Below are positions 25,829 to 42,106 of a DNA stretch of 64,000 nucleotides, piece after piece; position 1 is the stretch's first letter, and every line of letters begins with the position of its first letter. The notes under the pieces are model-generated. The model worked only from the letters and a program-made list of their open reading frames with translations, was not told the DNA's origin and did not search any database. The position numbers and the translations under genes are program-made. Source of the DNA: Verrucomicrobiota bacterium JB022 (lineage in GTDB: Bacteria > Verrucomicrobiota > Verrucomicrobiia > Opitutales > Oceanipulchritudinaceae); contig JAUTCQ010000015.1 in NCBI GenBank assembly GCA_030673845.1, positions 310,001-374,000 of the forward strand. Reading direction: 5' to 3'.

Positions 25829-25855
25829 GCCCGCCGACCACAGGGGCCGACGGGC
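25829..25855 (-). terminator. Intrinsic terminator of the minus arm of the pectin locus
   Basis: On the minus strand an 8-bp GC-rich stem (GCCCGTCG with CGGCGGGC, one G-U pair) with an 11-base loop is followed by six U. It lies 23 bases beyond the stop of the GH2 gene and marks the end of the leftward operon. Confidence 0.88.
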
Positions 25856-25877: not shown

Positions 25878-28800
25878 CTACTCGACTTCGAGCGAGTCGA
25901 AGATCAGGGACTCCAGTTGCGGGGTCTCGATGATCACGTGGTAGACGCCGGCGTTGATGCTGTCGCAGGTGCGGAGGCGGGTCAGGCCCCACTCACCGCG
26001 CTCGGTCGGCTGGAACACCACATCGTCGTCGCACACCAGCGCACCGTCGGCCGTGTTGATGATCGTCATCTTGGCCGGGATGGGCTCGTTGGATCGGCTC
26101 TGGTAGCGGAAGTTGAGGCCGTAGCGGTCGCCCACGCCCACCGAGATTTCAAACGGGAACTGCGTGAGGCCCGAGCCCTGGAGGTCCACATAGCCCTCGC
26201 CGGTATAGCCGGGCACGCTGGCGGCGCGGTAGCCGGTGGCTTCCTTCTGCCCCTCGGTCTGGAGGGTGAAGGCGGCGCGCACGGTCTGGATCACACCCAC
26301 ATACATGCGGGCAGGCTCGCCGTTGGGCAGCTTGGCGTTGGGCCCCAGTTCGACCGTCTCGCCGGGCAGGAAGCGCTTTTTGCGGAAGCGGTAGCCCGTC
26401 TCGCCGTCGTCGGTGGTGAAGAGCTTCCAGCCGCGCGAGTCGATCCAGTCGCTCATCCACGCCGGGAACTCGGTCACGCGGGCGTCGAGGCCCACATGCA
26501 CCTCGGTGTGGTCTTCCACGCGGAAGCGCACGCGCAGGTCCGGGTTGTCGGCATCGGCCTGCGGGAGCTGGATCCAGTCGGCATCGCTGAGGCGCGATTC
26601 AAACTTGGCGATGGCCGGGCCGCCGTCGCTGTAGAGCGGCTGACCGGCACGGAGGTTGCCCACCGCACGCACGCCATCGGGGCGCTGGCTGCCGCTGGCG
26701 ACAAAGTCGAACACTTCGGCGGCCGGGGGCGGCGGGAAGCGGCGCTCGGCCAGCAGGGCAATCGGCAGGGTGGGGAGGGTCACGGCGTCGCCCGCGCTCA
26801 CGCGCTTGCGCACCAGCGAAACGGCTTCGTCACGCGCCGAAGTCTCCAGTGTAAAGGGCGTGCCCTCCCAGTCGGCGAACTCACCGGCCAGGCTGGCGTC
26901 GACCGCCGCGTAGAGGTTGGTATCGACGGCCACGGAGAACGACACGGCCTGCTTGCCAGCCTTGGAGGGCAGTTGCAGCCAGTCGGCTTCGCGCAGCTCC
27001 CAGGAGAGGTCGGTCAAGGTGGTCGGCTGGTCGATGTGGAGCTTCACGCCCGTGTCGAGCCAGGTGCGTGCAGCGGCTCCCTTCACGTCGCGGAAGAGCG
27101 TGGAAGGCGTCGGCGCGGCGATTTTCACCGGGCTCTTGCTGGCCACGGCGATGGCGGAGATCACGGCCTGCCCGGCCTCGATCTGCGGGAAGTGGACCAC
27201 CAGCTTGCCGTCCTTGGCCTGGGCGGTCACGGTGCGCTTCAAGGCCTTGGCGCGACCGGCTTCAGCGAAGAGGTCGAGCCTTTCGAGCACTGTCTCGTCG
27301 TTGATCGCCACGTCGAACAAGCGCCAGCCCTTGGACTGGGTGTTGCCGAGGCCATACCACGGTTCGATGAAATACAGCTCCACTTCGTAGGTGCCGTTGG
27401 GGACTTCGAAGACGTATTGCAGCTCCTGCCGCCCGTAGCGGAACGACTGGAAGAGCGCGTCGTCGGAGGTGCCGAGCACGGGGTCGAAAATGCGGCGCTT
27501 GCTGCCGAAGCGCGGGTCGACGTTGGCGAAGCGGCTGCCCCAGGAGACGGAGCCCCAGGTGTCGCCCTCTTCGTAGACGCGGTCTGCCGCCCAGACACGG
27601 CCGGCGTGGTCGGCAAAGGCCGGGCCGCCAGCGTTGACGCGGTAAAGGTAAGTCAGCTCCTGCTTGGCTGCGGTCGGCTCCTTCTTCGGGGCCGGGTCGA
27701 GCTTGGCAAGGGTGTCGTCCTTGGGCAGGTGGTGGAGCGTGATCCAGTCGCGCGCCACCACTTTGCCGTCGATGCGGCCTTCGGCGTAGAGCAGGTTGGT
27801 CTGGATGTCCGCGCCGTCCCACTTGAAGTGCGTGCCGGGCCCGTTGCGCGTGCGCTTGCCCAGCGAGCGGGTGCGGAAACCGTTGTACAGCTCCACCTCG
27901 TCCACGTTGCCATAGACGACGATGCCGTCTTTCGCGCCCGGTTGCACCCAGCGGTCGGGCCAGGTGTGGGACGAGATGTAGACCATCGGTTCGTCGCTGC
28001 CCTCCACGTAATTGCTGCGATACATGTAGAAGGCGTCGAGCGGCTCACCCCAAATCGTTTGCAGGCCCTTGTTGTTGGCCGGGCCGATCTGGTCGAGCGG
28101 GCGGATGCCGTCGGTCGTCTGCTGGCCGAGGGCGCCCACGTTGCGGCCCGGGTTCTGGTGGGTGGTAAAGGGCCAGAGGAAGTGCCCGATGATCTGATCG
28201 CGGACCTTTTCGGCCTCGCCCAGCTTGATTTCGAGCAGGCCGGTCATGCGGTCTTCGGTCAGCGGGGCGTCGTCGTAAAAGCCGCCTTCGGAGTGGGCGT
28301 CGATGCTGCGCCAGGCGCCGTATTCGCCCACCATGCGCTGGCGGATCAGCTCCTCGCCATACTTGTAGGGGTCGCCGCCGTATGTGCCCGACCAGTTTTG
28401 CGGCACATCCCAGTCGGTGCCTTCGCCGCCGTTGCAGGTGACGATGGGGCGCTGGACGCTCGCGGTCGGGTCCAGCTCGCGGATGATCTCGACGCACTGC
28501 TCGGCAAACCATGCGGGTAGCTTGCTTTCGTTTTGCAGGCCGTAGAGGAAGATCGAGGGGCTGTTGCGGCGTTCCTTGATCCAGTCGCGCAGGAGAGCCT
28601 TGTAGTTGTTGTAAAAGTCTTCCTTCTCAAACCAGATGTGCGCGCCGAACTGCGTCCACCACAGCACACCCTTTTCGTCCCAGTGCTCGTTGAAGCGCAG
28701 ATTGTGCGGGTGGTGGGCATCGCGGAAGGTGTTGAAACCGGCGGAGAGGATCTTGCTCACCCGGGCGTCGACCTGCTCGTCGGAGAAGGCGTGGCTCTGG

Positions 28801-29825
28801 CCGAGCAAGTGCTCGTAGTCGGCGACGCCGCGCACAAAAAAGGGCTCGCCGTTGATCTTGAGCGGCTGGCCCGGCTCGCCGTGCACATCGGGCCACTCGA
28901 TATACCGGATGCCGAAGCGCGTTTGCGTGCGGTCGACTACCTTGCCGCCTTCGATGATCTCCGTGACCACCTGGTAGAGGTAGGGATTCGCGGGCGACCA
29001 GAGCTGCGGATTCTCCAATTTGGGGAAGTCTTGTGCCAGCTCGGTCGTGGCACCGGGGCGGAGGAAGGTCTTGGTCTCGACTTCGGCCACCGTCTGCCCA
29101 TCGGCGTCGACCAGGCGATTGCGGATGGTGAAGTCGCGGCGCTCGTCGCGGTGGTTGCGGACTTCGGTCGTCAGGTGGACGTTCTCCACGTCTTTCCCGT
29201 TCCAGGCGTGCACACCAAAGGGCGTCACGCGCAGGGAATCCGTCACGACGACGGAGACCGGGCGGGAGATGCCGAAGGGCTGCGTGCCTTCGGAAAAACC
29301 GTAAGCCAGCTCACAGCCGCCGCAGACCCAGGGCAGGTCGCGGATGCCCTCGGGGTGATCGGCGCGGACGGCCACCGTGTTGGGGCCGTCGTAGTCGATC
29401 ACATCCGTGACGTTGAGCGTAAAGGTCGTGAGGCCGCCGCCGTGGTGGCCGACCTGTTTGCCGTTGACCCACACCGAGGCATAGGAGCCTACGCCCTCGA
29501 AGAAGAGGAACACCTCGCGGCCATCGTCTTCGGGCTCGAGCGTAAAGGTGTTGCGGTACCAGGCCGAGCCGTGGAACACGCCGTGTTTCACCTGGCGGAA
29601 GCCCTCGTAGCTATCCCAGTTGTGCGGCACGCGCACCACTTCCCAGCCTGCGTCGTCAAACTCCGGCTGCTGGAAGGCCTGTTGCTCTGCCGAGGTATCT
29701 TCGGTGGCGACGGTGCGCCAGCCGTCGAGCAGGTAGGCTTGACGGCGCGTGTCGGCATCGGCCAGCACGGTGGAGGCCAGCGCCCATCCCAGGGCACCGG
29801 CTAGCATCGTTTGGGTAAAAGTCAT
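25878..29825 (-). CDS. Secreted GH2-family glycosidase with malectin-like domain (1315 aa)
   Basis: The exported enzyme has a signal peptide (1-22), the GH2 sugar-binding jelly roll (VRVPHNWDSYEGF, SVWVNGKQVGHHGGG), an Ig-like domain, and a TIM barrel. The acid/base Glu433 is in YGLQNES and the likely nucleophile Glu501 in MVGEYGAW. From about residue 725 a malectin-like carbohydrate-binding domain follows (YRVNAGGPAFADHAGRVWAA), then about 400 residues of beta-rich modules. GH2 covers beta-galactosidases, beta-glucuronidases and others, so the substrate is open; the setting suggests a pectin side-chain sugar. It is the last gene of the minus arm, five bases after the sialidase-like lipoprotein gene. 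Confidence 0.9.
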   Translation of the reverse strand: MTFTQTMLAGALGWALASTVLADADTRRQAYLLDGWRTVATEDTSAEQQAFQQPEFDDAGWEVVRVPHNWDSYEGFRQVKHGVFHGSAWYRNTFTLEPEDDGREVFLFFEGVGSYASVWVNGKQVGHHGGGLTTFTLNVTDVIDYDGPNTVAVRADHPEGIRDLPWVCGGCELAYGFSEGTQPFGISRPVSVVVTDSLRVTPFGVHAWNGKDVENVHLTTEVRNHRDERRDFTIRNRLVDADGQTVAEVETKTFLRPGATTELAQDFPKLENPQLWSPANPYLYQVVTEIIEGGKVVDRTQTRFGIRYIEWPDVHGEPGQPLKINGEPFFVRGVADYEHLLGQSHAFSDEQVDARVSKILSAGFNTFRDAHHPHNLRFNEHWDEKGVLWWTQFGAHIWFEKEDFYNNYKALLRDWIKERRNSPSIFLYGLQNESKLPAWFAEQCVEIIRELDPTASVQRPIVTCNGGEGTDWDVPQNWSGTYGGDPYKYGEELIRQRMVGEYGAWRSIDAHSEGGFYDDAPLTEDRMTGLLEIKLGEAEKVRDQIIGHFLWPFTTHQNPGRNVGALGQQTTDGIRPLDQIGPANNKGLQTIWGEPLDAFYMYRSNYVEGSDEPMVYISSHTWPDRWVQPGAKDGIVVYGNVDEVELYNGFRTRSLGKRTRNGPGTHFKWDGADIQTNLLYAEGRIDGKVVARDWITLHHLPKDDTLAKLDPAPKKEPTAAKQELTYLYRVNAGGPAFADHAGRVWAADRVYEEGDTWGSVSWGSRFANVDPRFGSKRRIFDPVLGTSDDALFQSFRYGRQELQYVFEVPNGTYEVELYFIEPWYGLGNTQSKGWRLFDVAINDETVLERLDLFAEAGRAKALKRTVTAQAKDGKLVVHFPQIEAGQAVISAIAVASKSPVKIAAPTPSTLFRDVKGAAARTWLDTGVKLHIDQPTTLTDLSWELREADWLQLPSKAGKQAVSFSVAVDTNLYAAVDASLAGEFADWEGTPFTLETSARDEAVSLVRKRVSAGDAVTLPTLPIALLAERRFPPPPAAEVFDFVASGSQRPDGVRAVGNLRAGQPLYSDGGPAIAKFESRLSDADWIQLPQADADNPDLRVRFRVEDHTEVHVGLDARVTEFPAWMSDWIDSRGWKLFTTDDGETGYRFRKKRFLPGETVELGPNAKLPNGEPARMYVGVIQTVRAAFTLQTEGQKEATGYRAASVPGYTGEGYVDLQGSGLTQFPFEISVGVGDRYGLNFRYQSRSNEPIPAKMTIINTADGALVCDDDVVFQPTERGEWGLTRLRTCDSINAGVYHVIIETPQLESLIFDSLEVE

Positions 29826-29829
29826 GTCT

Positions 29830-31647
29830 CTATTGCTCGGCGGGGAACTCGAATTTCACGTCGTCGATCTGGAATACGGCGCGCTTGGCGCGTTCGTCGG
29901 CCCCGGGCAGCTCGTGGCCACCGGCGCCGCGTCGGCGGTATTCACCGGTGCGGAAGGTCATGCGCTCGACTTGCGGGATGTAGTCGCTGAAGTAGGCGTC
30001 GCGGTAGAGCGTCTCCTTGCCGTTGACGAGGATGCGGAACTTTTCGGTGTTTTTCTCGGGGTTGACCCAGATGGTCAGCTCCGACCACTCACCGGCCTGG
30101 TAAGTGCCGGCGTCTTTCCAGATGCCCTCATGGCGGGCTTCGATCTTGCCGTCGGCGGTCAACGCCACCTGGACGGGGCGCATGCCGTTGGGGCCGGTAA
30201 AGTCGATTTCGAGGCGGGCGTCGGTCTGCTCGGCCTTGAAGTTGAAGGTGGTCTTGACGCTGCGGCTGGCCGGGAAGGCGCGGGTGGCGCTGGCGTAATC
30301 GTAAGGGTCTTCGTCCACCAGTTGCAGCACGCGGCCATGCGTCTCATCGGCCTGAACGACGGTGACGGGGGCCCAGACGGGGCGGTAGATGTTCCAGAGC
30401 ACCGGCATCTTGTTGATGTTCGTCTGCTCAAACTCGTCGTTGGCGGGCACCGGGGCGTCTGCGGTGATGGGGGTGGGCGTGCGGCTCACCCAGAGGTCTT
30501 CCTTGTTCACGCTGTAGGTCAGCCACAGGTCGTTGCCCGGCGGGTTGCCGTTGCCTTCGGAGATGCCGCGCACGTATTGCGGCCCCATGTTCTTGTAAAG
30601 GCCGGGCCAGCGTTGCACGGGCAGTTCGCCGTGGATGCTCAGCAGCTGGTCGAAGTTTTGGCCGTCGTCGCTCAACATCACGGCCAGCGGGTGGCGCAGG
30701 CGCGTGGTGGGGTTGTAGACGAGCGCATACTTGCCGTCGTCGGTCTTTTGCGCCCAATACTTCGAGCCGTTGACCTCCAGGCCGGGGATGAAGCCCTTGC
30801 GCTCCCAGGTCTCGCCCTCGTCGTCGGAGATCGAGGCCTGCGCGTCCTTGGCCAGGCCGACGACCTTGCCGTCGGGGCGGTGGTAGGTCATAAAGGCCTT
30901 GCCCTTCACGCGGTAAAAGCCGTCTTCGGCGCGGTCTTCCTCCCACCATTGGGCGGTGGCCAGCTTGTCGTTGAGCAGGGCTTCGCAAGCTTCCTTGAAG
31001 GCCGCATCGCCCGACTGGGTGTAAAAGGGATACTGCTTGGCCTTCGCTTCGTCCCAATTCGGGCCCGAGTTGTAGCGGATGAAGTAGATCGGGCCCAATT
31101 CGCCATTGGCCTTCACCTCGCGCACGACCCGGCCGATGCCGCTGCCGTCGTTGGGGTTGGGGGCCTCGCCGTGGAAGCCGGTGGCGAGCAGGCGGCCATT
31201 GGGCGCCACATACCACACCATGCGCTGGTGCGTCAGCGTCCACGAGCCGTCGGGCAGCTGGTAGGCGGGGAAGAGCAGCTTCGGCGCGCTCCAGTTGACG
31301 CCGTCGAGCGACGTCATGAAAGAGGTGTCGGTCGGCGTGTCGTGCTCGTTGACGGCACCGCTGAGGTAGGCGAGCAAAAACTTGTCCTGCCAATAGGCCA
31401 GCATGGGCGCGTGCAGGTAGGTATGGTCGAGCCCGTCCTGGTGCTGCGGCTGGGTGCGGTTGGCGCGGTAGACCTGGATGTTGTGGGTACCTACGGCCCA
31501 GCGCAGGCCGCCGTCGGCATTGGTGTTGGCCACCTCATCGCCGTTGAAGATGACGGGATGTTCGATTTCCGAAATCGGCTGCGCAGTGGCAGTGCAGCCC
31601 GCGAGCAGCGGAAGGGCAAAACAAGAAACGAGATAGGGGAGCTTCAT
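29830..31647 (-). CDS. Sialidase-like (BNR/Asp-box) lipoprotein with C-terminal LamG-like domain
   Basis: The 605-residue protein starts with a lipoprotein signal (MKLPYLVSCFALPLLAGC; Cys18 lipidated). Residues about 25-380 look like a beta-propeller with Asp-box-type repeats (SISDDEGETWERKGF, FMTSLDGVNWSAPKL) and many conserved aromatic and acidic residues. Residues about 410-605 form a concanavalin-like or LamG-like domain (DARLEIDFTGPNGM, RFRILVNGKE-type strands). Sialidase-fold enzymes include hydrolases of 2-keto-3-deoxy sugars such as Kdo and Dha. Because the operon encodes aldolase, kinase and dehydrogenase for such an acid, release of an ulosonic acid at the cell surface is a reasonable guess. 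The start at 31,647 is fixed by the signal peptide. Confidence 0.78.
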   Translation of the reverse strand: MKLPYLVSCFALPLLAGCTATAQPISEIEHPVIFNGDEVANTNADGGLRWAVGTHNIQVYRANRTQPQHQDGLDHTYLHAPMLAYWQDKFLLAYLSGAVNEHDTPTDTSFMTSLDGVNWSAPKLLFPAYQLPDGSWTLTHQRMVWYVAPNGRLLATGFHGEAPNPNDGSGIGRVVREVKANGELGPIYFIRYNSGPNWDEAKAKQYPFYTQSGDAAFKEACEALLNDKLATAQWWEEDRAEDGFYRVKGKAFMTYHRPDGKVVGLAKDAQASISDDEGETWERKGFIPGLEVNGSKYWAQKTDDGKYALVYNPTTRLRHPLAVMLSDDGQNFDQLLSIHGELPVQRWPGLYKNMGPQYVRGISEGNGNPPGNDLWLTYSVNKEDLWVSRTPTPITADAPVPANDEFEQTNINKMPVLWNIYRPVWAPVTVVQADETHGRVLQLVDEDPYDYASATRAFPASRSVKTTFNFKAEQTDARLEIDFTGPNGMRPVQVALTADGKIEARHEGIWKDAGTYQAGEWSELTIWVNPEKNTEKFRILVNGKETLYRDAYFSDYIPQVERMTFRTGEYRRRGAGGHELPGADERAKRAVFQIDDVKFEFPAEQ

Positions 31648-31688: not shown

Positions 31689-32684
31689 CTACGACGCAAG
31701 TTGCGCCGCCAGCTTCAAAGCGGCCAGCAGGCTGCGGGGATCGGAGCGGCCCGTGCCGGCCAGATCGAAATTGGTGCCGTGCTCGACGGAGGTGCGGATG
31801 ATGGGCAGGCCGAGGGTGATGTTCACCCCGCGCCAGATGCCGAGCATCTTCACCGCGACGTGGCCCTGGTCGTGATACATGGCCACCGCAGCGTCGAACT
31901 CGCCGTTCATCGCGCGGAAAAACACCGTGTCGCCCGGGTGCGGGCCGGTGACTTTCCAGCCGCGGCGGCAGGCTTCGTCGATTGCCGGTTGGATAAATTC
32001 CTCTTCTTCGCTGCCAAAGAGACCGTGCTCGCCCGCGTGGGGGTTGAGGCCGGCCACCGCGATATTGGGCTCTTCGATGCCCAGGCGCTGCACGGCTTCG
32101 CGGGTCAACTCCAGCACCTTCAGGATTCGCTCCGGGCGCACGCGGTTGATCGCCTCGGCTAGCGAAACGTGGGTGGAGACGTGGCTGACCCGCAGCTTCT
32201 CGGCCGCCAGCATCATCGTGGCACCCGGGGTCTTGCACAGGTGCGAGAGCAGCCCCGTATGGCCGTCGTAGTGGTGCCCCGCCTTGTTCAGCGATTCCTT
32301 GTTGATCGCAGAGGTGACGATCGCGCCTACCTGCTTGGCCAGCGCGGCCTCGGTGGCCGTCTTGATGTATTCGTAGGCGGCCTGGCCGGCGGGCGGGCTC
32401 ACCTTGCCCAGCTCGAGCGTGGCAAGATCGACGTTCTGGAGGTCGAGCACTTCGATGTGGTCGGCATCCGGCGCGGCGGCGCTGAAGTCGGTAATGGCGC
32501 GGATCTCGGCCTTGCAGCCGGTATAGCCGGCGGCGGCGCGCAGGGTCTGGGCATCGCCCACCACCACCGGGCGGCAGATGGCGAGGATCTCGGGATCCAC
32601 GAGGGCTTTGGTGATCAATTCGGGACCGGTGCCGGCGGGGTCTCCCATCGTCACGGCCAGGATCGGCTTGTTTTCAGGCTTCAT
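31689..32684 (-). CDS. pdxA2: PdxA2-type 4-phospho-D-threonate (or erythronate) dehydrogenase
   Basis: The 331-residue protein is a PdxA-family NAD-dependent decarboxylating dehydrogenase: AVTMGDPAGTGPELI at the N-terminus, metal-binding His in GHHYDGHTGLLSHL and AMYHDQGHVAVKML, and the phosphate/NAD region LPIIRTSVEHGTNFDLAGTG. True PdxA makes pyridoxine, but this gene overlaps by four bases a DUF1537 kinase. That pair is the hallmark of the D-threonate pathway, where PdxA2 converts 4-phospho-D-threonate to dihydroxyacetone phosphate and CO2. No other vitamin B6 genes are nearby. The assignment to PdxA2 rests on this context. Confidence 0.85.
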   Translation of the reverse strand: MKPENKPILAVTMGDPAGTGPELITKALVDPEILAICRPVVVGDAQTLRAAAGYTGCKAEIRAITDFSAAAPDADHIEVLDLQNVDLATLELGKVSPPAGQAAYEYIKTATEAALAKQVGAIVTSAINKESLNKAGHHYDGHTGLLSHLCKTPGATMMLAAEKLRVSHVSTHVSLAEAINRVRPERILKVLELTREAVQRLGIEEPNIAVAGLNPHAGEHGLFGSEEEEFIQPAIDEACRRGWKVTGPHPGDTVFFRAMNGEFDAAVAMYHDQGHVAVKMLGIWRGVNITLGLPIIRTSVEHGTNFDLAGTGRSDPRSLLAALKLAAQLAS

Positions 32685-33829
32685 GCGCGTAGCAGCTGGG
32701 TATTTAACGTCTCAGGCCAGGCATAGCTGCCCGGCTTGAGGGTTACAATAAAATGGGAAGCGGATTTCGGGGCGAGGCTGACGACGCCCGGCGCCCAGCT
32801 GCCCGCCATTTCGAGCTGGTGCCACTGGAGGCGGTCGAGAATCGCGGCCGCCGTCGAGCCTCCGGCGATCACGAGGTGCTGGAAGGCCCACTCGCGGTAA
32901 AGGTGCGCCACGGCCCCGCTGAGGACTTCCGCCGCGCGTTGGGCGAGGGAATCGGAGGCAACCCCGCGAGCGTCGGCGGCGATCACCACTGTCTGTCGCT
33001 TTTCGAGCAGGGAGGCGATACCTGCCAGAATCGGCGGTGCGGGGTCTGCACCCACGGGCAGCGGGAAAAACTTCGCGCCCCGGCTGATCGCCAGCTCGCG
33101 CCACGCATGCGTCGCATCCGCAATCGAGCCCAGCACGATGAGGGCAGGGGAGGGCACGGTGGGGGGCGGTACGACGACCGGAGGCCGGCAGCCCTGTTGG
33201 CGCAGCAGTGCGGCAAAAAACTCGGCCCCGCCTGCCGCCAGCGTCTGGGCGTCGACTTCGCGAGCCCACGCGGTCACGTCGGCACTCGTGGCGGTTTCGC
33301 CCACGACGAGGCCCTCGCGCGCGGCGCGGCCTGGTTGCCCGAGGTGGACCGGGTGCGGGCCGAAGCGCTGCAGCAGCTCCGTCACCTGGGCTGTCGTCGC
33401 CGGGTGGCGCGGGTCACGGGCAAAAGGCGTCTGGTGCAGCGGCACGCCGTCGACCAGGTAGGTGCCGTCGATGATCTGGCGGCGCAGTCCCGGGTTGGCG
33501 GGCACCAGCAAGGTGCGCTCGCGGCCCAGCCACGCGGCCATGGCCGCACACTCTTCGGCCACCGCGCCGCGCAGCACGGAGTCGGTCTTTTTATACCAGA
33601 GCGCTCCGGGGTGCGGGCTCAAGCCATCGAGCATCGCCCCCAGGCGTCGGGTGGCCTCGTCCGGAGCGTCGAGGCGGGTATCGGTGTCGCCCACCACCAG
33701 GTCGGCAGTGGGGTCGAGGCGGGGCTCCGGACCCCGCACGACGAGGGATCGCAGGCCATGCGCCTGCCCGATCGCGGCGATTTCGGCCGCGCCGGTCAAG
33801 TCGTCGGCCACGGCGATCACGCGGCTCAT
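32681..33829 (-). CDS. dtnK: Four-carbon acid sugar kinase (DUF1537, DtnK-like)
   Basis: The 382-residue protein begins MSRVIAVADDLTGAAEIAAI, the substrate-binding motif (ADDLTGA) of the DUF1537 kinase family. KKTDSVLRG and the C-terminal nucleotide-binding glycine motif HLVIAGGSTAAAIL complete the pattern. Family members phosphorylate D-threonate, L-threonate or D-erythronate on the terminal hydroxyl. Overlaps of four bases on both sides (ATGA) tie it to the upstream aldolase and the downstream PdxA2-type gene. The ATG at 33,829 was chosen over one 15 bases earlier because it gives the conserved N-terminus and the coupled overlap. Confidence 0.87.
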   Translation of the reverse strand: MSRVIAVADDLTGAAEIAAIGQAHGLRSLVVRGPEPRLDPTADLVVGDTDTRLDAPDEATRRLGAMLDGLSPHPGALWYKKTDSVLRGAVAEECAAMAAWLGRERTLLVPANPGLRRQIIDGTYLVDGVPLHQTPFARDPRHPATTAQVTELLQRFGPHPVHLGQPGRAAREGLVVGETATSADVTAWAREVDAQTLAAGGAEFFAALLRQQGCRPPVVVPPPTVPSPALIVLGSIADATHAWRELAISRGAKFFPLPVGADPAPPILAGIASLLEKRQTVVIAADARGVASDSLAQRAAEVLSGAVAHLYREWAFQHLVIAGGSTAAAILDRLQWHQLEMAGSWAPGVVSLAPKSASHFIVTLKPGSYAWPETLNTQLLRA

Positions 33830-34740
33830 ACAGGGTTCGGGCACTGGCGGCGGGCGGCAAGGGCCTGCACGACAGTGTCACGCTCGGCTCCTTCGAGGGT
33901 CAGGAGCGGCGGCAAAACGTAGGGTTGGCACAGGCCGTCGACGCACATGGCTGCCTTGAGGGCGGCGAGCGACTGGCCGAGGGTGCGGTTTTCCTGATAG
34001 ACGAGGCTCAGGTGGTCGAGCTGGTCCTGGCAGGCCTTGGCGCCTTCCCAGTCGCCCTGGGCGGCGAGCGTCTCCAACTGGTGCCACAGGGCCGGCTCAA
34101 GATTGCCGGAGCTGGGGACCAGGCCGTCGAATCCGGCCTTGAGGGCCTCGACGGAAAGACGCGCGGCGCCCATGAAGACCGAGAAGTCGTCACGTTGAGC
34201 CAACGGTGCCACCAGCTCCAGGCGCCCGGGCGTCGCCTCGGAGTCCTTGAAGCCGATGATGCACTTTTCGGAGGCGAGCGCCTCGACCACCTCGACGGGG
34301 ATCGACATGCGCGTGGCCTGCGGGATGTTGTAGATCATGATCGGCCCGTCGATCTCCTGGCAGAGCAGGCGGAAGTAGGCGATCATCTCGTCTGGCTTCA
34401 GCAGGTAATAGGACGGCAGGTGCGCCACGACCGCGTCGACCCCTTGCTTGAGGTATTCGCGGGCGGCAGCGATCGACTCGAGCACGCAGTTTTCGCCGAT
34501 CCCGGCAAAGACGGGCACGCGGCCTTCGGCGGCCTGCACGGCGATCGCCACCAGCTCGCGGCGCATCCGGCCGGGGATCGAGGCGGCTTCGCCCGTCGTG
34601 CCGAGCACAAAAGCGCCGAGCTTGTTCTGGGCCAGGCGGTCGACCAGGCGGGCGGCGGCTTCGCCGTCGAGTTCGCGGTCGGCCGTGAATGGGCTGATCA
34701 TGGGCACCACGGTGCCTCGGATTTTTTCGGAACGGGTCAT
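33826..34740 (-). CDS. DapA/NAL-family pyruvate aldolase
   Basis: The 304-residue protein is a class I Schiff-base lyase of the DapA family: GTTGEAASI near residue 48, the catalytic Tyr in PIMIYNIPQAT and the Schiff-base Lys in CIIGFKDSEATPG. Lysine biosynthesis is unlikely because the gene is locked into a sugar-acid operon by ATGA overlaps with both neighbours. Related enzymes cleave 2-keto-3-deoxy sugar acids to pyruvate and an aldehyde. Together with the iron alcohol dehydrogenase and the threonate-type kinase, the likely substrate yields a four-carbon aldehyde acid. Upstream in-frame extension overlaps the dehydrogenase gene and was rejected. Confidence 0.85.
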   Translation of the reverse strand: MTRSEKIRGTVVPMISPFTADRELDGEAAARLVDRLAQNKLGAFVLGTTGEAASIPGRMRRELVAIAVQAAEGRVPVFAGIGENCVLESIAAAREYLKQGVDAVVAHLPSYYLLKPDEMIAYFRLLCQEIDGPIMIYNIPQATRMSIPVEVVEALASEKCIIGFKDSEATPGRLELVAPLAQRDDFSVFMGAARLSVEALKAGFDGLVPSSGNLEPALWHQLETLAAQGDWEGAKACQDQLDHLSLVYQENRTLGQSLAALKAAMCVDGLCQPYVLPPLLTLEGAERDTVVQALAARRQCPNPV

Positions 34741-35894
34741 TCCATGGCCTTTTGGTAAATCATGGCAGCGTCCTCCACCGTCAGCGGGCGGGGGTTGTTG
34801 CGGAGTAAGCGGGTAACGGTCATCGCGGATTCGGCCATGCGAGGGATGGCGTCGGCCGGGACACCGATTTCGGAAAGGCGACGGGGTATCTGGCAGGCTG
34901 CGCACAGCTCTTCGAGCGCCACGATGCCGGCTTCGGCGGTGGCGGCGTCGCTGCCCTGGTCTTCCACGCCGAGCGCGCGGGCGATGTCCGCATAGCGTTT
35001 GGGGGCCGCCGGGAGGTTGAAGCGCAGCACGTGCGGCAGCAGGAACGCGTTGGAGAGGCCGTGTGCGATGTGGAACTCGCCGCCCAACGGGTAGGCGAGG
35101 GCGTGCACGGCGGCGGTATTGACCGGGCCGAGGCACATGCCGCCGTAGAGGCTGCCGAGCGAGACGGCGGTGCGGGCGGCGAGGTCGTCCCCTTGCTCAA
35201 AGGCGCGGCGGATGTTGGCCCCGATCAGGCGCACGCCCTCCAGCGCGTAGATGTCGACCATCGGGTGCGCGTGCAGGTTGGCGTAGGCTTCGATACAGTG
35301 GACCAGGGCGTCGATGCCGGTGGTGGCGGTCAACGCGGGCGGCAGGCTCAGCGTCAGCTCCGGGTCGACGAAGGCGGCGTCGGGCACGAGCCAGGGGCTC
35401 ACGACGCCCTTTTTCAGGTGCTCGCTCTCGTCGAGCAGGATGGCGTTGGGCGAGACTTCGCTGCCGGTGCCGGAAGTGGTGGGCAGGCACACGAGGCGCT
35501 TGTTGCGGCCCTTGAGGTTGCCGATGCCGAAGGCTTCCTTCACCGGTTGCGGGTTGTCGGCCATCGCTGCGATCAGCTTGGCGATGTCGAGTACGCTGCC
35601 GCCGCCGAGGCCGACCACCGTATCGGCATGGCTCTCCTGGGCGCGCTGGCGCAGGCGTTCAAAGGTGGCGACGTCGGGCTCCGGGGGGGCATCTTCGATC
35701 ACCGTCACGCTCATCCCGGCGGCTTCGAGGGCTTCCTTCACGGGATCGGCCAGGGAGCGGATGAACGAGTTGGTGATAAGGAGGACGGAGCGCGTCTGGT
35801 GTCGCTGGAGGTAGGCTGGCAAGTCTTTGCGGCAGCCCGCCCCGAAGGCGAGGTGGCCGACTTGCAACAGCGTGAGAGGAGAGATCGTTTCCAT
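34737..35894 (-). CDS. Iron-containing alcohol dehydrogenase, likely aldehyde reductase
   Basis: The 385-residue protein belongs to the Fe-ADH (type III) family. The NAD(P)-binding GGGSVLDIAKLIA segment is near residue 97, and the metal ligands are in TGIDALVHCIEAYANLHAHP and GEFHIAHGLSNAFLLPHVLRF. Such enzymes usually reduce short aldehydes such as lactaldehyde or succinate semialdehyde. Its stop overlaps the aldolase start by four bases, so reduction of the aldehyde produced by that aldolase is the simplest role. It lies seven bases downstream of the symporter gene. Confidence 0.9.
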   Translation of the reverse strand: METISPLTLLQVGHLAFGAGCRKDLPAYLQRHQTRSVLLITNSFIRSLADPVKEALEAAGMSVTVIEDAPPEPDVATFERLRQRAQESHADTVVGLGGGSVLDIAKLIAAMADNPQPVKEAFGIGNLKGRNKRLVCLPTTSGTGSEVSPNAILLDESEHLKKGVVSPWLVPDAAFVDPELTLSLPPALTATTGIDALVHCIEAYANLHAHPMVDIYALEGVRLIGANIRRAFEQGDDLAARTAVSLGSLYGGMCLGPVNTAAVHALAYPLGGEFHIAHGLSNAFLLPHVLRFNLPAAPKRYADIARALGVEDQGSDAATAEAGIVALEELCAACQIPRRLSEIGVPADAIPRMAESAMTVTRLLRNNPRPLTVEDAAMIYQKAME

Positions 35895-35900
35895 AGGAAA

Positions 35901-37454
35901 TCAGGCCGCCGTTTCGCTTTGGGGGCGTCGACGGAAGGTGTATTGCTCGATGTCGTCGGGGCGGTAGCCGCCCGCAATGAGGCTGACGATGTAGCCCACC
36001 CCGAAGAGGATGATGTGCCCGAAAATGCCGATCAGGATCGGGTTCCAGGTAAAGTTGAGGCCGAGGTCCATAATGCGGCTCTCACCGCCCTGCGTCAGGA
36101 TGCCCCAGCCGGTAAAGATCATGCAGGCCACGATGCCGGCGTAGCAGCCCGTGCGGGTCGCCTTGCGGGTGAGGAAGCCGAGCAGGAAGAGCCCCAGCGT
36201 GCCGCCGGAGAGGATCGCAGCGATGACGACCCCGCGCTCCATGATGGAGGCGATGCCTTCCTTGGGCACCAGCAGCAGGGCGACGCCGGCGGAGATGAGG
36301 CCCGCGATGGCCACCATCAGGCGCCCGTAGAGCAGTTGCTCGCGGTCCGACATCTCTTTGCGGAAAAAGCCGATGTAATCGCTCGTGATCACGGTCGCGA
36401 TGCTGTTGAGGTCGGCGCTGATGGACGACATCGAGGCGGCGAGGATCGCGGCGAGGATCAGGCCCACGATGCCTGCCGTCATCTCGGTAACGATGAAGTA
36501 GGGCACCACGTCGTCGGCCAAGGCAGGGGCCGGGTGCCCGGTGAGGTGGTAATAGCCCCACAGGCAGGCGCCGATAAACATGAAGACCGCCCAGACGGGG
36601 ATGCAGAGGAAGGCGTTCCAAAGCGCGCCACGGCTGGCCTCGCGGTCGGTCGATGCGATGAGGTAGCGCTGCACCATATGCTGGTCGGCAATGTAGCGTC
36701 GGCCCCAGTTGATCGCGTAGGCGAGCATGAAGAGCCACTGCGTCGTCAGCGCCGGATCGGTCAGAGACTGGAGGGTAAAGCTGAAGTCGCCCAGGTTGAG
36801 CTTGCCGCCTTCCCAGGCCGCCTGCACCACTGCGCCGGGAGGCCCGGCCTCGGGGGCCAACAGGAGGCGCGCGAGGATCAGCACCGCTGCGCCGATAAAG
36901 ATGCCGCCCTGCAGCACGCTCGTCCACACCACTGCCTTCATGCCGCCGATCATGGTGTAGAGGATCGTGAAGATACCGATGCTCAGGATCACGTAGCGAA
37001 TGTCCCAGCCGGTCATCACGCGCACGGCTACGGCGGTCGTGACCAGCGTCAGGCCCAGATCGAAGATCCGGTCGCAAAGAAAGCCGAAAGAGGAGTAGAA
37101 CTTGCCGCCCAGCCCGAAGCGTTTGCCGATGTATTCGTAGGCGCTCAGGCCCACGGTGTGCCGGTAGAAGGGCACGATGTATTTGGCCACCACGATGAGC
37201 ACCAGCGGCAGCATCATGTTGCCGAGCAGGAGGATCAGGCCCTTCTGGAAGGTGGTGCCGGGCAGGCCGACGATGGTGCCGCTGCCGATGATCGTCGCCA
37301 TCAACGTCATGGCCACGGCCCAGGCGGGCATGGTGCGCCCGGCGATAAAATAATCCGCAGAGCTTTTGGAGCCGCGGGAGGCCCACAGGCTCAGGCCGGC
37401 TACGATAATCGCGTAGCCGATGATGACAAGATAGTCTAGGGTTCCGAGGGACAC
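35901..37454 (-). CDS. Sodium:solute symporter (SSS family), sugar-acid uptake candidate
   Basis: The 517-residue inner-membrane protein has 13-14 hydrophobic segments and SSS features: a first helix LDYLVIIGYAIIVAGLSLWA, SKSSADYFIAGRTMPAWAV, and the Na-site region MSSISADLNSIATVITSDYI near residue 345. Members import sugars, sugar acids or amino acids with sodium. It leads the operon with the iron dehydrogenase, aldolase, kinase and PdxA2-type genes, so it probably imports the sugar acid they degrade. The start is GTG. Two TTTCATGAAA palindromes lie 75-115 bases upstream. Confidence 0.9.
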   Translation of the reverse strand: MSLGTLDYLVIIGYAIIVAGLSLWASRGSKSSADYFIAGRTMPAWAVAMTLMATIIGSGTIVGLPGTTFQKGLILLLGNMMLPLVLIVVAKYIVPFYRHTVGLSAYEYIGKRFGLGGKFYSSFGFLCDRIFDLGLTLVTTAVAVRVMTGWDIRYVILSIGIFTILYTMIGGMKAVVWTSVLQGGIFIGAAVLILARLLLAPEAGPPGAVVQAAWEGGKLNLGDFSFTLQSLTDPALTTQWLFMLAYAINWGRRYIADQHMVQRYLIASTDREASRGALWNAFLCIPVWAVFMFIGACLWGYYHLTGHPAPALADDVVPYFIVTEMTAGIVGLILAAILAASMSSISADLNSIATVITSDYIGFFRKEMSDREQLLYGRLMVAIAGLISAGVALLLVPKEGIASIMERGVVIAAILSGGTLGLFLLGFLTRKATRTGCYAGIVACMIFTGWGILTQGGESRIMDLGLNFTWNPILIGIFGHIILFGVGYIVSLIAGGYRPDDIEQYTFRRRPQSETAA

Positions 37455-37528: not shown

Positions 37529-37538
37529 TTTCATGAAA
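37529..37538. promoter_or_regulatory. Candidate LacI-family operator O1
   Basis: TTTCATGAAA is a perfect 10-bp palindrome within GTTATTTCATGAAAAGATAA. It lies between the LacI-type regulator gene and the symporter start codon, 75 bases upstream of the latter. An identical core is 31 bases further upstream. Palindromic sites of this kind fit a LacI-family dimer, though the usual central CG is replaced by AT. Confidence 0.6.
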
Positions 37539-37559: not shown

Positions 37560-37569
37560 TTTCATGAAA
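37560..37569. promoter_or_regulatory. Candidate LacI-family operator O2
   Basis: This is a second perfect TTTCATGAAA palindrome, centred 31 bases (about three helical turns) from O1, in the similar context TGTATTTCATGAAAAAATAA. The same-face phasing supports cooperative binding in the symporter promoter. Confidence 0.6.
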
Positions 37570-37625: not shown

Positions 37626-38708
37626 CTACAACTGCGCGACGGACTCGCGTTCTACCAATGAAGGTGAAACCAGAATGCGAAAACTGAGGTTTTCCTGAGG
37701 GTGACGTATCCGCCACAGCAACTGATCGACTGCGCGCTGCCCGACGACTTCGGGGTGCACGTCGATCGTCGTCAACCCGGGGCGCAGGTCCATCAGCAGC
37801 GGCATCTCGTTGTTGCAGGAGATCACGCTCACGTCTTTACCCACCTGCAGGCTCCGGCGCTCGAGGGCGGAGTAAAGCTGCACCGCGGTGCGGTCCGACG
37901 GGACGAAAATGGCGGTGGCGCGACGCTCGGCGGGCACGTTCATCCACTGGTCGACCAAGGTCTCCACGTGCTCCTGCGAAGTGGTCGCCGGCAGGGGCCA
38001 GGAGATGAGCGGCGGCGGCTCGACTTCGAGGGCGCTGGTCTCGAGGCTCAGCCGCTCGGCGGCCACGAAAAAGCTTTGCTTCAGTTTCTCGAATTGCGAC
38101 TGCCCCGGCTTGGGGTTGAGGAAGCAGACGCGGCGGTGCCCCTTGGCGTGCAAGTGCCTCGCTACCAAGCGGCCGGCGGCATCGGTGTCGAAGTTGCAAT
38201 GGTCGCCCCGGGCGTTGGGCAGGCGGCCCATCAGCCACACGTGAGGGTAGCTGTAGACGTGCCGCAGCAGGTCGTTTTCTTCAGGGTTGGGCAGGGCACC
38301 CTGGTTGGGCCCCTTGATGATGACCCCTTCGACGCGATTTTCGGCCAGAAAGGGCGGGATACGGTCCCCTTCCGGGATGTTGCTGAGCATCAGATTGCGG
38401 CCGATTTCGGAGAGGGCGACTTCGATGCCGTGTACGGCAGAGCTCACGACCGGGAGCTGTGCCAGGGTGTCTTGCATGCCGAAGAAAATCACACCGATGT
38501 TGCCCACCTCGCTATGGTGAGCGCTGCGGGTGCGTTTGCGCTGCCGCACATAACCCAATTTGGCGGCAGCCTCGTTGACGCGACGCCGGATGTCGATGTT
38601 GACGTCGGGGTGCTTGTTAAAGACTCGAGAGACTGTTCCGGTAGCGACGCCGGCGGCCTTTGCAACCTCTGTAATGGTCGCCCGCGGCTTGGAGTTGGGT
38701 TTGTTCAT
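37626..38708 (-). CDS. LacI-family transcriptional regulator
   Basis: The 360-residue protein has the LacI HTH at ITEVAKAAGVATGTVSRVFN (12-31), a hinge region ending GYVRQRKR, and a periplasmic-binding-type ligand domain (NIGVIFFGMQDTLAQL, RVEGVIIKGPNQ, GHRRVCFLNPK, VSVISCNNEMPLLMDLRPGL, TTIDVHPEVVGQRAVDQLLW). It sits at the junction of the two arms of the pectin locus. Palindromes related to TTTCATGAAA lie upstream of its own gene and of the symporter gene, so it is likely an autoregulated repressor of at least the minus arm. The effector is presumably the imported sugar acid or a derived intermediate. Confidence 0.93.
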   Translation of the reverse strand: MNKPNSKPRATITEVAKAAGVATGTVSRVFNKHPDVNIDIRRRVNEAAAKLGYVRQRKRTRSAHHSEVGNIGVIFFGMQDTLAQLPVVSSAVHGIEVALSEIGRNLMLSNIPEGDRIPPFLAENRVEGVIIKGPNQGALPNPEENDLLRHVYSYPHVWLMGRLPNARGDHCNFDTDAAGRLVARHLHAKGHRRVCFLNPKPGQSQFEKLKQSFFVAAERLSLETSALEVEPPPLISWPLPATTSQEHVETLVDQWMNVPAERRATAIFVPSDRTAVQLYSALERRSLQVGKDVSVISCNNEMPLLMDLRPGLTTIDVHPEVVGQRAVDQLLWRIRHPQENLSFRILVSPSLVERESVAQL

Positions 38709-39110: not shown

Positions 39111-40553
39111 ATGAAGTTCACCCCAATCTCCCAACTATCGCCCCGACGTTTCATCCCCTGGGCGCTTTGCGGCCTGCTGGGGCCGGTCGCCTGCTATGCC
39201 CTGCCTGCCTTCCCCGGTGCGGAAGGTGCCGGTGCGGAGACCATCGGCGGGCGTTGGGGTCGCGTCGTCTACGTGACCAACCTTCAGGACAGCGGTCCTG
39301 GCAGCCTCCGCGCGGCCCTCGAGATGGGTGGCGAGCGTACCATCCTCTTCAAGGTGGGTGGCCGCATCCACCTCGAATCCCCGATCGAAGTCGTCAACCC
39401 TTACGTGACTATCGCCGGACAGACGGCTCCGGGCGACGGCATCACGATCAGCGGCGAGACGATCCACATCAACACCGAGGAAGTGATCATCCGCTACCTG
39501 CGCTTTCGGCGCGGGACGCTTGAGCGTCGCGACGACAACCTCGGCGGCTACCCGATCCGCAACATCATCATCGACCATTGCTCCTTCAGCTGGGGCCTCG
39601 ATGAAAACGTCTCGTTTTACCGCTACACGCGCGAAAACGAAGACGGCACCCGCGAAAAGCTGCCGACCGAAAACGTGACCATCCAGTGGTCCATCTCCAG
39701 CGAGGCGCTCGACGAGTTCAACCACGCCTTCGGGGCCACCTGGGGCGGCAAGAACGCCTCCTTCCACCACAACCTCTTTGCCAGCAACACCGCGCGCAAC
39801 CCGAGCATCGGGTGGGGGCAGAACGTGGACATCCGCAACAACGTGCTTTTCAACTGGCGCCATCGCTCGATCGACGGCGGCAGCGGCGCAGCCACGGTCA
39901 ACGTGGTCAACAACTACTTCAAGCCCGGCCCCGCCACCGGCGACGGCCCGATCCAATACCGGGTCGCTCGCCCGCAGCACCTCGACAAGCATTACGAGAC
40001 GAATGAGCCCGGCGGCTGGTTCGTCGACGGCAACCATGTCGTCGGCTACCCGGAGGTGACGGCCGACAACTGGGCCGGTGGGGTGCAGCTCGACGACGAC
40101 GAGCTGGGCGGCAAGACGCTCGAAGACGTGCGCGCCAGCCAGCCCTACGACATCGCTCCGGTGACGACCCACTCGGCCGAAGAGGCCTACGAGCTCGTCC
40201 TCGCCCACGCGGGAGCCACACTGCCGCGGCGCGACGTAGTCGACCGGCGCATCGCCCAGGAAGTGCGCGCTGGCCAGCCCACCCACGGCAACGGCATCAT
40301 CAAGCGCATCGACGACGTCGGCGGCTGGCCGGAGTTCCGGGGTGGCCTGCCCCCGGTCGATACCGACCTCGACGGCATGCCCGACGCCTGGGAACGCCGT
40401 TACGGCCTCGACCCCGAAGACCCCGCCGACGGCGTCCGCGATGCCGATGGCGACGGTTACACCAACCTCGAAGAATACCTCAACGGCACCAACCCCCTGG
40501 AAGCGGTCGACTACAGCGACCCTGCCAACAACGTATCCAGCCTGCCCCGATGA
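39111..40553 (+). CDS. Secreted pectate lyase (PL1-like) with C-terminal Ca-binding repeat
   Basis: The 480-residue protein has a signal peptide (about 1-31) and then LPAFPGAEGAGAETIGG, the typical start of bacterial pectate lyases. A right-handed beta-helix follows with YVTIAGQTAPGDGITISG, IRNIIIDHCSFSWGLDENVS (Ca and substrate region) and NASFHHNLFASNTARNP with the catalytic-arginine area. Near the C-terminus DTDLDGMPDAWERRYGLDPE and DADGDGYTNLEEYLNGTNP form a thrombospondin-3/dockerin-like calcium repeat. It opens the plus arm and overlaps the next gene by ATGA. No Shine-Dalgarno sequence precedes the ATG. The cleaved polymer is most likely homogalacturonan or the rhamnogalacturonan backbone. 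Confidence 0.9.
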   Translation: MKFTPISQLSPRRFIPWALCGLLGPVACYALPAFPGAEGAGAETIGGRWGRVVYVTNLQDSGPGSLRAALEMGGERTILFKVGGRIHLESPIEVVNPYVTIAGQTAPGDGITISGETIHINTEEVIIRYLRFRRGTLERRDDNLGGYPIRNIIIDHCSFSWGLDENVSFYRYTRENEDGTREKLPTENVTIQWSISSEALDEFNHAFGATWGGKNASFHHNLFASNTARNPSIGWGQNVDIRNNVLFNWRHRSIDGGSGAATVNVVNNYFKPGPATGDGPIQYRVARPQHLDKHYETNEPGGWFVDGNHVVGYPEVTADNWAGGVQLDDDELGGKTLEDVRASQPYDIAPVTTHSAEEAYELVLAHAGATLPRRDVVDRRIAQEVRAGQPTHGNGIIKRIDDVGGWPEFRGGLPPVDTDLDGMPDAWERRYGLDPEDPADGVRDADGDGYTNLEEYLNGTNPLEAVDYSDPANNVSSLPR

Positions 40554-42106
40554 AGCTCCGCCCCCTCACTTTGACCGCCGCTGCCTGCGCCACCCTGCCG
40601 GCAGCCTCCTGGGCCAACGACCGCCTCGCCGTGCTCGAAGCGGACGATTACGCCCGCCACGTGGAATTCTTTAACCAGATGGAGCCGGAGCGGGTCGTGA
40701 ACCTCATCCCCAACTCCGAGTCGTGGGAATGGATGGAGGCGGAGATCCCGTTCTTCACCTGCCCCGATGCCGATCTGGAAGAGATCTACTACTTCCGCTG
40801 GTGGGCCCTGCGCAAGCACCTCAAGGAAGTCGGCCCCTACAAGGCCTACACCGAATTCATCGAGCTGGAGACCAATGCCTGGTTCATCCCGCCGGAGCGC
40901 ACCATCGCCAGCGCGCTCGGCCACCACTTCATGGAGACCCGCTGGCTGCAGAACCAGGAAAACGACGACAGCTATCTCGATTACTGGATGCAGGGTAAGG
41001 ACGGCGAGCCGCAGGGCCACTTCCACCGCTACAGCAGCTGGTTGATGGACGCCCTTTGGCAGCGTGCCGAGGCCACCGGCGATTTCGAGTTCCTGCTCGA
41101 CCGTTTCGACCTGCTCAACGCCGATTATGCGCGCTGGGAAGAGGAGAAGCGCCGTCCCGACGGGCTCTTCTGGCAGTACGATGTGTGGGACGCGATGGAG
41201 GAATCCATCAGCGGCAGCCGCCACCAGCAAAACGTGCGCCCGACCATCAACAGCTACATGTTCGGCAATGCCGTCGCCATGGAAAAGCTCTCGAAGCTGG
41301 CAGGCGACAACGAGCAGGCCGAGGTCTACGCCGCCAAAGCCCGCGAGCTGCGCAACCTCGTGCAGGAACATCTCTGGAATCCGGAGAACAAGTTCTTCGA
41401 AGTCGTCTACCCCGATGGTGAATTCGCCGACGCACGCGAGGCCATCGGTTTCATCCCCTGGTATTTCAACCTCCCCGAGCCCGGCCAAGGCTATGAAGTG
41501 GCTTGGGAGCAACTGACCGATCCGCTCGGCTTCTGGGCTCCCTACGGCCTCACTACTGCCGAACGCCGCCACCCGCGCTTCCGCTCCTACGCCATCGGCA
41601 CCTGCGAGTGGGACGGCGCGTTGTGGCCCTACGCGACCAGCCAGACGCTCGTCGCACTGGCCAACGTGCTCCGCAACTACCCGGATACGCCCGTCTCGGC
41701 TCACGACTACTACGACGCCTTCGTCACCTACACCCGCTCCCAGCGTTATGCCGGGCTGCCCTACATCGGCGAGTATCAGGACGAGACTTCCGGGCAGTGG
41801 CTGAAGGGCCGTGCGCCGCGCAGCTATTACTACCACCACTCGACCTACGCCGATCTGCTGATCACGGGCCTCGTGGGCATGCAACCGCAGGCCGATGGCT
41901 CGCTCGTGGTCGATCCGCTCCTGCCCGAAGGCACGTGGAACTGGTTTGCGCTCGACGGCGTGCCTTACCACGACCACCAGGTCACCATCATTTGGGACGC
42001 CGACGGCAGCCAGTTCGGCCAAGGCGCCGGCTTCCAGGTGCTTATCGACGGCGAACAGGTCGCCCACGCAGAGGAATTGCAACGTTTGGAAATCAAGCTT
42101 CCATGA
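40550..42106 (+). CDS. Secreted six-hairpin glycoside hydrolase (GH63/MGH1-like)
   Basis: The 518-residue protein has a signal peptide (MKLRPLTLTAAACATLPAAS) and an all-helical (alpha/alpha)6 pattern. Characteristic segments are YYFRWWALRKHL near residue 80, GLFWQYDVWDAMEESISGSR and GTCEWDGALWPYATSQTL near 360, which resemble GH63/GH37-type and MGH1-like hydrolases. A small beta domain closes the protein. The substrate is unknown; the place between a pectate lyase and a beta-helix fusion, with overlaps of four bases on both sides, indicates a pectin oligosaccharide. Confidence 0.75.
   Translation: MKLRPLTLTAAACATLPAASWANDRLAVLEADDYARHVEFFNQMEPERVVNLIPNSESWEWMEAEIPFFTCPDADLEEIYYFRWWALRKHLKEVGPYKAYTEFIELETNAWFIPPERTIASALGHHFMETRWLQNQENDDSYLDYWMQGKDGEPQGHFHRYSSWLMDALWQRAEATGDFEFLLDRFDLLNADYARWEEEKRRPDGLFWQYDVWDAMEESISGSRHQQNVRPTINSYMFGNAVAMEKLSKLAGDNEQAEVYAAKARELRNLVQEHLWNPENKFFEVVYPDGEFADAREAIGFIPWYFNLPEPGQGYEVAWEQLTDPLGFWAPYGLTTAERRHPRFRSYAIGTCEWDGALWPYATSQTLVALANVLRNYPDTPVSAHDYYDAFVTYTRSQRYAGLPYIGEYQDETSGQWLKGRAPRSYYYHHSTYADLLITGLVGMQPQADGSLVVDPLLPEGTWNWFALDGVPYHDHQVTIIWDADGSQFGQGAGFQVLIDGEQVAHAEELQRLEIKLP

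Follow-up and report, generated by a model that had tools for sequence, protein, structure and literature searches.

We describe an operon for which the likely function is the uptake and breakdown of 3-deoxy-D-lyxo-heptulosaric acid (Dha), a rare C7 sugar acid of the plant cell-wall pectic polysaccharide rhamnogalacturonan II (RG-II). It lies in a 64,000-nucleotide stretch of Verrucomicrobiota bacterium JB022 (the window; contig JAUTCQ010000015.1), and its enzymes recur, in several gene orders, in distant bacteria, most of which also have a homologue of the glycoside hydrolase (GH) that releases Dha. An earlier note, made from the letters of this DNA, had proposed the same substrate. That interpretation is supported, partly by evidence absent from it, namely the homologues of both halves of the RG-II enzyme BT1020 and the recurrence of the genes in other arrangements.

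The proposed route begins outside the cytoplasm, where a GH142 enzyme would take off the terminal L-arabinofuranose and a lipoprotein-like GH143 enzyme would then free Dha. A sodium:solute symporter (SSS) would be the importer. In the cell, a DapA-type aldolase would cut Dha between C3 and C4 to give pyruvate and D-threuronate (4-oxo-D-threonate), the aldehyde of which would be reduced to D-threonate by an iron-containing alcohol dehydrogenase (Fe-ADH). A DUF1537 kinase would convert D-threonate to D-threonate 4-phosphate, and a PdxA2-type enzyme would oxidise and decarboxylate this to dihydroxyacetone phosphate (DHAP) and CO2. The argument from D-lyxo to D-threonate had been put forward in the earlier note, and working through the stereochemistry agrees with it: given the D-lyxo configuration at C4-C6 of Dha, the C3-C4 cut followed by aldehyde reduction yields exactly D-threonate. 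Applying this cut to 3-deoxy-D-manno-oct-2-ulosonic acid (Kdo), to test the method, gives D-arabinose. With D-threonate as the product from Dha, the kinase and PdxA2-type enzyme would have an obvious role, that of the D-threonate pathway.

The operon and its putative chain D enzymes

The run of five genes that had been claimed is contiguous on the minus strand, and all of its Pfam matches exceed the curated cut-offs. In order of transcription these are the SSS symporter (35901-37454; SSF, E 1.6e-39), the Fe-ADH (34737-35894; Fe-ADH, E 1.9e-44, and ADH_Fe_C, E 2.9e-56), a DapA-superfamily class I pyruvate aldolase (33826-34740 from an ATG start, with a longer GTG frame in the list of open reading frames; DHDPS, E 1.2e-46), a DUF1537 four-carbon acid sugar kinase (32681-33829 from an ATG start, a GTG at 33844 being possible; SBD_N, 121 bits, and NBD_C, 43 bits) and the PdxA2-type decarboxylating dehydrogenase (31689-32684; PdxA, E 6e-106). 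All three of the ATGA overlaps reported among the last four genes were found, at the Fe-ADH/DapA, DapA/kinase and kinase/PdxA junctions. The unit is longer than the five genes first proposed. Seven head-to-tail genes extend from 37454 to 25878 on this strand, the last two being of GH143 type (29830-31647) and GH2 (25878-29825), and a co-directional LacI-family regulator (37626-38708, minus strand; Pfam LacI and Peripla_BP_3) lies upstream of the symporter. Gaps of 6 bases between SSS and Fe-ADH, 41 between the PdxA2-type and GH143-type genes and 4 before GH2 separate the genes that do not overlap. A terminator-like hairpin of 11 pairs followed by a T run is found 3' of the GH2 gene (25829-25855); hairpins of this kind are not above shuffles in the window (9 found, 10.3 expected).

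GH143 was created for BT1020 of Bacteroides thetaiotaomicron, which, according to a passage of PMC6811678, takes L-arabinofuranose off RG-II chain D first and then Dha off the backbone, with GH143 catalysis via a Tyr-Glu pair. Excerpts of other papers place GH142 in the second half of BT1020 (PMC7263609), give beta-1,5-arabinofuranose as the chain D terminus (PMC12282258) and state that Dha is restricted, within plants, to RG-II (PMC12168206). The GH143-type protein of the window matches PF24067 (Beta-prop_BT_1020) with 287 bits against a cut-off of 27 (E 1.4e-85) and aligns to residues 28-576 of the BT1020 structure 5mqr, its N-terminal half (E 2.2e-122). A GH142-type beta-L-arabinofuranosidase gene on the plus strand (40550-42106) aligns to residues 618-1101 of the same structure (E 2.9e-160). 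Two window genes thus match the two halves of BT1020, and the locus has putative counterparts of each of the chain D activities reported for it, the GH143-type inside the operon and the GH142-type nearby and divergent. Tyr77, Tyr358, Glu101, Glu177 and Glu383 are invariant in 12 aligned GH143 sequences including that of the window, the catalytic ones among them not being singled out. The N-terminus of the GH143-type protein reads LAGC, which we take to be a lipobox and the basis for calling it lipoprotein-like. The GH2 protein scores 1204 bits against NF049877, below the cut-off of 1800, over profile positions 364-1246 of 1400; we presume that this beta-glucuronidase/beta-L-arabinofuranosidase family is that of BT0996, the GH2 part of which the window protein resembles. 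PF22422 is of no use as a GH142 marker, as it matches 11 of 11 genomes.

Two other plus-strand genes of the window were noted. One, at 42103-45060 near the pectin genes, encodes a protein of the uncharacterised family DUF6298, which is found repeatedly near GH143 and GH142 in related loci and possibly acts on RG-II. The other, at 57403-61398, encodes a large protein in which GH2 is followed by a C-terminal BNR_2 sialidase-like domain, and in Larkinella (L192) a homologue of the BNR part lies between the GH143 and Fe-ADH genes.

The gap between LacI and SSS contains two copies of the palindrome TTTCATGAAA, at 37529-37538 and 37560-37569, which are candidate LacI operators. They are the only copies in the 64 kb, where the order-1 expectation is 0.02 per strand. 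LacI homologues 60-62% identical to that of the window lie upstream of the set of enzyme genes in four related loci (L032, L038, L040 and L051). We looked for TTTCATGAAA in nine loci, the window and eight others. It precedes the first set gene in four of the five with a LacI homologue (the window, L032, L038 and L051, not exactly in L040), and it was found upstream of the set in none of the four in which no LacI homologue was detected (L034-L037). LacI probably represses the operon through the TTTCATGAAA palindromes.

Recurrence of the four-enzyme set

PF24067 and a kinase profile (A3) were both run on one draw of 387 Verrucomicrobiota genomes. PF24067 matches 39 of them at E 0.001, 16 with more than 80 bits. 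The kinase profile matches 20, and the 11 that exceed 480 bits are all among those 16. In every one of the 11 (ten fetched loci and the window), Fe-ADH, aldolase, kinase and PdxA2-type genes share one locus with GH143. GH143 above 80 bits occurs in five of the remaining 376 genomes (G160, G375, G344, G010 and G350), some on very short contigs, and the association has a Fisher p of 7e-18 with relatedness ignored. Ten of the genomes belong to the window's order; the eleventh (G168, L044) lies outside its class and has a different gene order. An SSS gene is beside the four enzymes in most related loci. The four-enzyme array is not a product of chance, because the same four cytosolic enzymes are co-located in many other loci. 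The intact set was confirmed in 12 genomes of the sample, and in 11 of them the locus includes a GH143-type gene, which largely allays the concern of the earlier note that such sets might be found mainly away from pectin loci. G375 has a fragmented set on one contig (L166, C3) and a GH143 copy on another (L042, C6), each split over several frames by decay or assembly errors.

A scan of named genomes for GH143 relatives extended the search beyond this sample. Among the loci of the best 80 of at least 583 relatives, 11 hold all four genes within the fetched flanks, all in Verrucomicrobiota and four of them repeats of phylum-sample loci, and five further loci hold one or two. The kinase profile was then run on the genomes behind 50 of the 80 loci (49 distinct), mainly leaving out those in which the set had already been seen. 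It matches 32 at E 0.001 and 17 with more than 200 bits, and the loci of the 17 contain all four genes in 11 cases, three in two (Planctomycetota, with no Fe-ADH seen) and fewer in four (some on short contigs). Chosen for having GH143, these 49 genomes show recurrence, not correlation. Bacteroidota, KSB1 and other Verrucomicrobiota also have the full set, in at least three gene orders: Fe-ADH-DapA-kinase-PdxA-GH143 in Opitutales; Fe-ADH-DapA-PdxA-kinase-SSS with GH143 upstream in Larkinella; and DapA-SSS-Fe-ADH-PdxA-kinase in Paludibacter and Pleomorphovibrio, with GH143 directly upstream in the latter. Cultured relatives with the set include IMCC26134, Pelagicoccus and Larkinella punicea. Bacteroidota loci have the set beside GH143 (L192 and L200) or within 20 kb of it (L209). 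In a gammaproteobacterial metagenome-assembled genome, Fe-ADH and DapA genes abut GH143 on one contig and the kinase and PdxA genes are on another.

A sample of 296 Bacteroidota was searched with PF24067 and a broader kinase profile (A6). PF24067 matches 20 genomes at E 0.001; 17 of these pass the family cut-off, all with more than 320 bits. The kinase profile matches eight, five above 400 bits, and the set is complete in all five. GH143 is present in three of these, within 8 kb (G407), within 20 kb (G466) and elsewhere on the same contig, at about 645 kb (G468), and the association has a Fisher p of 0.0015. In this Bacteroidota sample, the set is thus a moderate predictor of GH143, and GH143 is a poor predictor of the set. 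The co-occurrence of the four families with an RG-II hydrolase, which the earlier note proposed to look for, holds in the Verrucomicrobiota sample for all genomes with a kinase above 480 bits; in the Bacteroidota sample it is not exclusive.

Enzyme subfamilies and candidate substrates

So, is Dha the substrate? The marks of class I pyruvate aldolases in the DapA superfamily, a GTTGE motif (G47-E51), a Tyr (Y137) and the Schiff-base Lys (K165), are invariant in all 18 rows of an alignment (A7) that includes the window aldolase. This protein scores 146 bits against the dapA equivalog TIGR00674, missing the cut-off of 206, and it also lacks the arginine after the YNVPS motif that marks dihydrodipicolinate synthase (DapA), having A at this position (T in the other 17 rows). 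Lysine synthesis was rejected as its role on the missed cut-off and missing arginine. The nanA model cut-offs are likewise not reached. Arg173 is invariant in the 18 rows; it was considered as a carboxylate-binding signature and dropped, as E. coli DapA presumably has an arginine equally far from its lysine. The set aldolases form one 36-row clade that spans phyla (Shimodaira-Hasegawa approximate likelihood-ratio support of 97, by a quick method), apart from the window's second DapA-type protein and those of Paenibacillus; the locus of one clade member (L224) has a kinase of another subfamily. Trees were built without translations that had internal stops or were shorter than 200 residues, with minimum lengths of 330 residues for kinases, 270 for aldolases and 300 for PdxA proteins. 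Second copies of other loci (L052, L055, L063, L064, L189 and L199) were also left out, as was L202, a close relative of L201. For the Fe-ADH, lactaldehyde-reductase and similar equivalog models all score under their cut-offs in an NCBIfam search.

DapA-fold lyases act on 2-keto-3-deoxy acids, and Kdo, in side chain C, is likewise such an acid of RG-II. The aldolase might then act on Kdo, with the kinase and PdxA enzyme handling a separate supply of D-threonate. We regard this as very improbable: cutting Kdo would give D-arabinose, leaving both a C4-acid kinase and PdxA without explanation, and the set genes stay together across phyla. Moreover, a second pair of DapA-type aldolase and SSS genes (46701-49142, plus strand) could handle Kdo. 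This pair is beside an apiosidase-like gene, the nearest solved structure is a 2-keto-3-deoxygluconate/2-keto-3-deoxy-6-phosphogluconate (KDG/KDPG) aldolase, and a relative shares one 6-kb contig with GH143 (L043). The pair is possibly for Kdo or another keto-deoxy acid.

The kinase belongs to the DUF1537 family, with both of its domains over the Pfam cut-offs. The set-linked kinases and a few relatives from kinase-plus-PdxA pairs form one 40-row clade (100/100) that spans phyla, apart from DtnK-like proteins, and 39 of the 40 carry a C-terminal KPGSYxWP motif, the remaining one (L206) ending at a contig end. The corresponding end reads KAG(G/A/N/S)FG in eight DtnK-like kinases of Paenibacillus (L215-L222). 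The PdxA2-type enzyme is equally clear at the family level (PF04166, 354 bits; TIGR00557, 361 bits). Its best solved relative is 4jqp, named 4-hydroxythreonine-4-phosphate dehydrogenase (E 5e-92), and the solved D-threonate 4-phosphate dehydrogenase 6e85 matches at E 4e-83. A role in vitamin B6 synthesis was rejected, since a second, distant PdxA (34% identical) is encoded elsewhere in the genome.

Could the kinase and dehydrogenase instead serve another RG-II sugar such as D-apiose, or a plain D-threonate pathway, and be co-located with the rest incidentally? We take 3-oxo-isoapionate kinase to be a DUF1537 protein, the OiaK model matches one such kinase (L217), an apiosidase-like gene is present at 45074-46678, and kinase and PdxA genes occur without the aldolase in L160 and L161. 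However, the OiaK model has no match to the window kinase at E 0.001, the aldolase and Fe-ADH would be left unexplained, and split transketolase and FGGY kinase genes, which we presume to be of an apiose route, are by GH143 in L053 and L077 with the set not nearby. We thus give this reading hardly any credence, and Kdo and apiose are both rejected as the main substrate, on the D-arabinose product and the unexplained enzymes, respectively. The GH143 loci just mentioned are from Paraglaciecola and Paenibacillus (L053:1008-4359 and L077:14657-18013) and also contain transporter genes. The pairs in L160 (9713-11763) and L161 (8972-11105) comprise a same-clade kinase and PdxA, with neither aldolase nor Fe-ADH; genes that by eye resemble short-chain dehydrogenase/reductase and aldo/keto-reductase genes are near the former. 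These pairs perhaps serve a different source of threonate.

Several observations weigh against Dha breakdown as the function of the set. The earlier labels DtnK and PdxA2 stand at the family level, but neither specific function reaches its NCBIfam equivalog cut-off: the kinase scores 89 bits against the D-threonate kinase model NF047819, the better of two matched, where 450 are required, and the PdxA2-type enzyme 329 bits against the D-threonate 4-phosphate dehydrogenase model NF002891, where 583 are required. In Verrucomicrobiota, the 480-bit kinase line was drawn after the scores were seen, at the gap to the next score of 317, and the ten genomes from the window's order are not independent. 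The next three kinases are that of a full set in a genome with no PF24067 match (G295, L159) and those of the kinase-PdxA pairs in L160 and L161 (G274 and G099). Among genomes with GH143, a kinase above 200 bits was not found in 32 of the 49 from the named-genome scan, including the Verrucomicrobiota behind L056, L059, L060 and L061 with no kinase match above 160 bits, and no kinase was found in 14 of the 17 sampled Bacteroidota. Conversely, GH143 was not found in two of the five set-bearing Bacteroidota (G509 and G611, loci L207 and L208). The link of the set to GH143 is thus not an exclusive one, as L207 and L208 in Bacteroidota and L159 in Verrucomicrobiota have the set without GH143.

The sets without GH143 could indicate an operon for a broader class of 3-deoxy-2-ulosaric acids, or for another such acid (for example, from algal walls), with RG-II Dha as one source. 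A sialidase-like BNR gene other than GH143 neighbours the set in L159 and L207. Its products in these two loci are homologues, with 39% identity across 559 positions, BNR_2 being detected in the L207 protein and only a MORN match at E 0.001 in that of L159. A relative lies between the kinase and PdxA genes in L189, which also carries GH143. Sulfatase homologues are next to the set in L207, L209 and L196; L206 has a truncated fragment and L208 a fragment of 42 residues, and a GH127-like gene lies a few kb away in L208. It is reasonable to guess that algae supply the same sugar, because a passage of PMC10762512 reports deoxy-lyxo-2-heptulosaric acid from prasinophyte scales and the Tetraselmis theca. 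The presence of the same Dha in algae would mean a wider niche for the proposed route, not a rival to it, and the set shares a strand with GH143, often near GH142, in the window and the rest of its order. We therefore consider a function directed at a broader or different acid unlikely, and favor Dha as the substrate.

A dedicated, phylum-crossing pathway for 3-deoxy-lyxo-heptulosaric acid, with its own KPGSYxWP kinase subfamily and aldolase clade, can be suggested tentatively and with some doubt. GH143 would act on land-plant RG-II, and the second sialidase-like family (L159, L207 and L189) and sulfatases on marine green algal Dha, perhaps with a second assembly in Paenibacillus. In the latter, one run (L217:7230-11737) encodes DapA, Fe-ADH, a DtnK-like kinase and PdxA2, the aldolase and kinase being of other subfamilies, and Fe-ADH and DapA genes are near GH143 in L099. 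Paenibacillus is the weakest limb of this wider reading, because the L217 aldolase passes the dapA cut-off (240 bits, cut-off 206) and retains the DapA arginine. In a sample of 13 genomes of the genus, six have GH143. Close relatives of this aldolase (more than 315 bits) are no more than 5 kb from it in three of the six and at a distance of about 22 kb in a fourth. Aldolase and Fe-ADH relatives are also paired in GH143-negative genomes (G732, G735 and G739), and the link of the pair to GH143 is suggestive only.

Significance and comparison with known systems

An enzyme that releases Dha is known (a passage of PMC6811678), and the fate of free Dha in the cell was not found described in the open-licence literature searched, which leaves out most subscription journals; the earlier note likewise knew of no described catabolic route. 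The operon would supply a complete four-enzyme route and would give a DUF1537 kinase subfamily and a DapA-superfamily clade a candidate function each. GH143 together with the set could serve as a genomic marker of organisms for which Dha may be a carbon source. Most sampled Bacteroidota with GH143 seem to have no such kinase, and are predicted either to rely on a different route or to let other organisms have the Dha.

The closest parallel at the end of the proposed route is the D-threonate pathway, reportedly described by Zhang et al. in 2016, in which DtnK and PdxA2 lead to DHAP. Both have a DUF1537 kinase followed by a PdxA2-type dehydrogenase yielding DHAP, but the window pathway would be fed by an aldolase and a reductase, and its kinase is in the separate KPGSYxWP subfamily, far under the DtnK cut-off. 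The logic of aldolase, reductase and kinase is that of the GarL-GarR-GarK route for galactarate and glucarate, in which a pyruvate aldolase acts on a keto-deoxy-aldarate and the aldehyde acid is reduced and then phosphorylated. Unlike that route, the window's would start from a C7 rather than a C6 acid, DapA, Fe-ADH and DUF1537 proteins replace the Gar families, and a PdxA2 step is added. Homologues of both catalytic halves of the GH142-GH143 enzyme BT1020 occur in the window, but as two genes on opposite strands, and joined to an intracellular catabolic set that is apparently missing from most of the sampled Bacteroidota with GH143 (14 of 17). Finally, N-acetylneuraminate catabolism uses NanA lyase, a sialidase-fold hydrolase, an SSS symporter and amino-sugar enzymes. 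The window shares the combination of sialidase-fold hydrolase, SSS symporter and DapA-fold lyase, whereas its aldolase is under the nanA cut-offs and the kinase and PdxA2-type enzyme take the place of the amino-sugar enzymes downstream.

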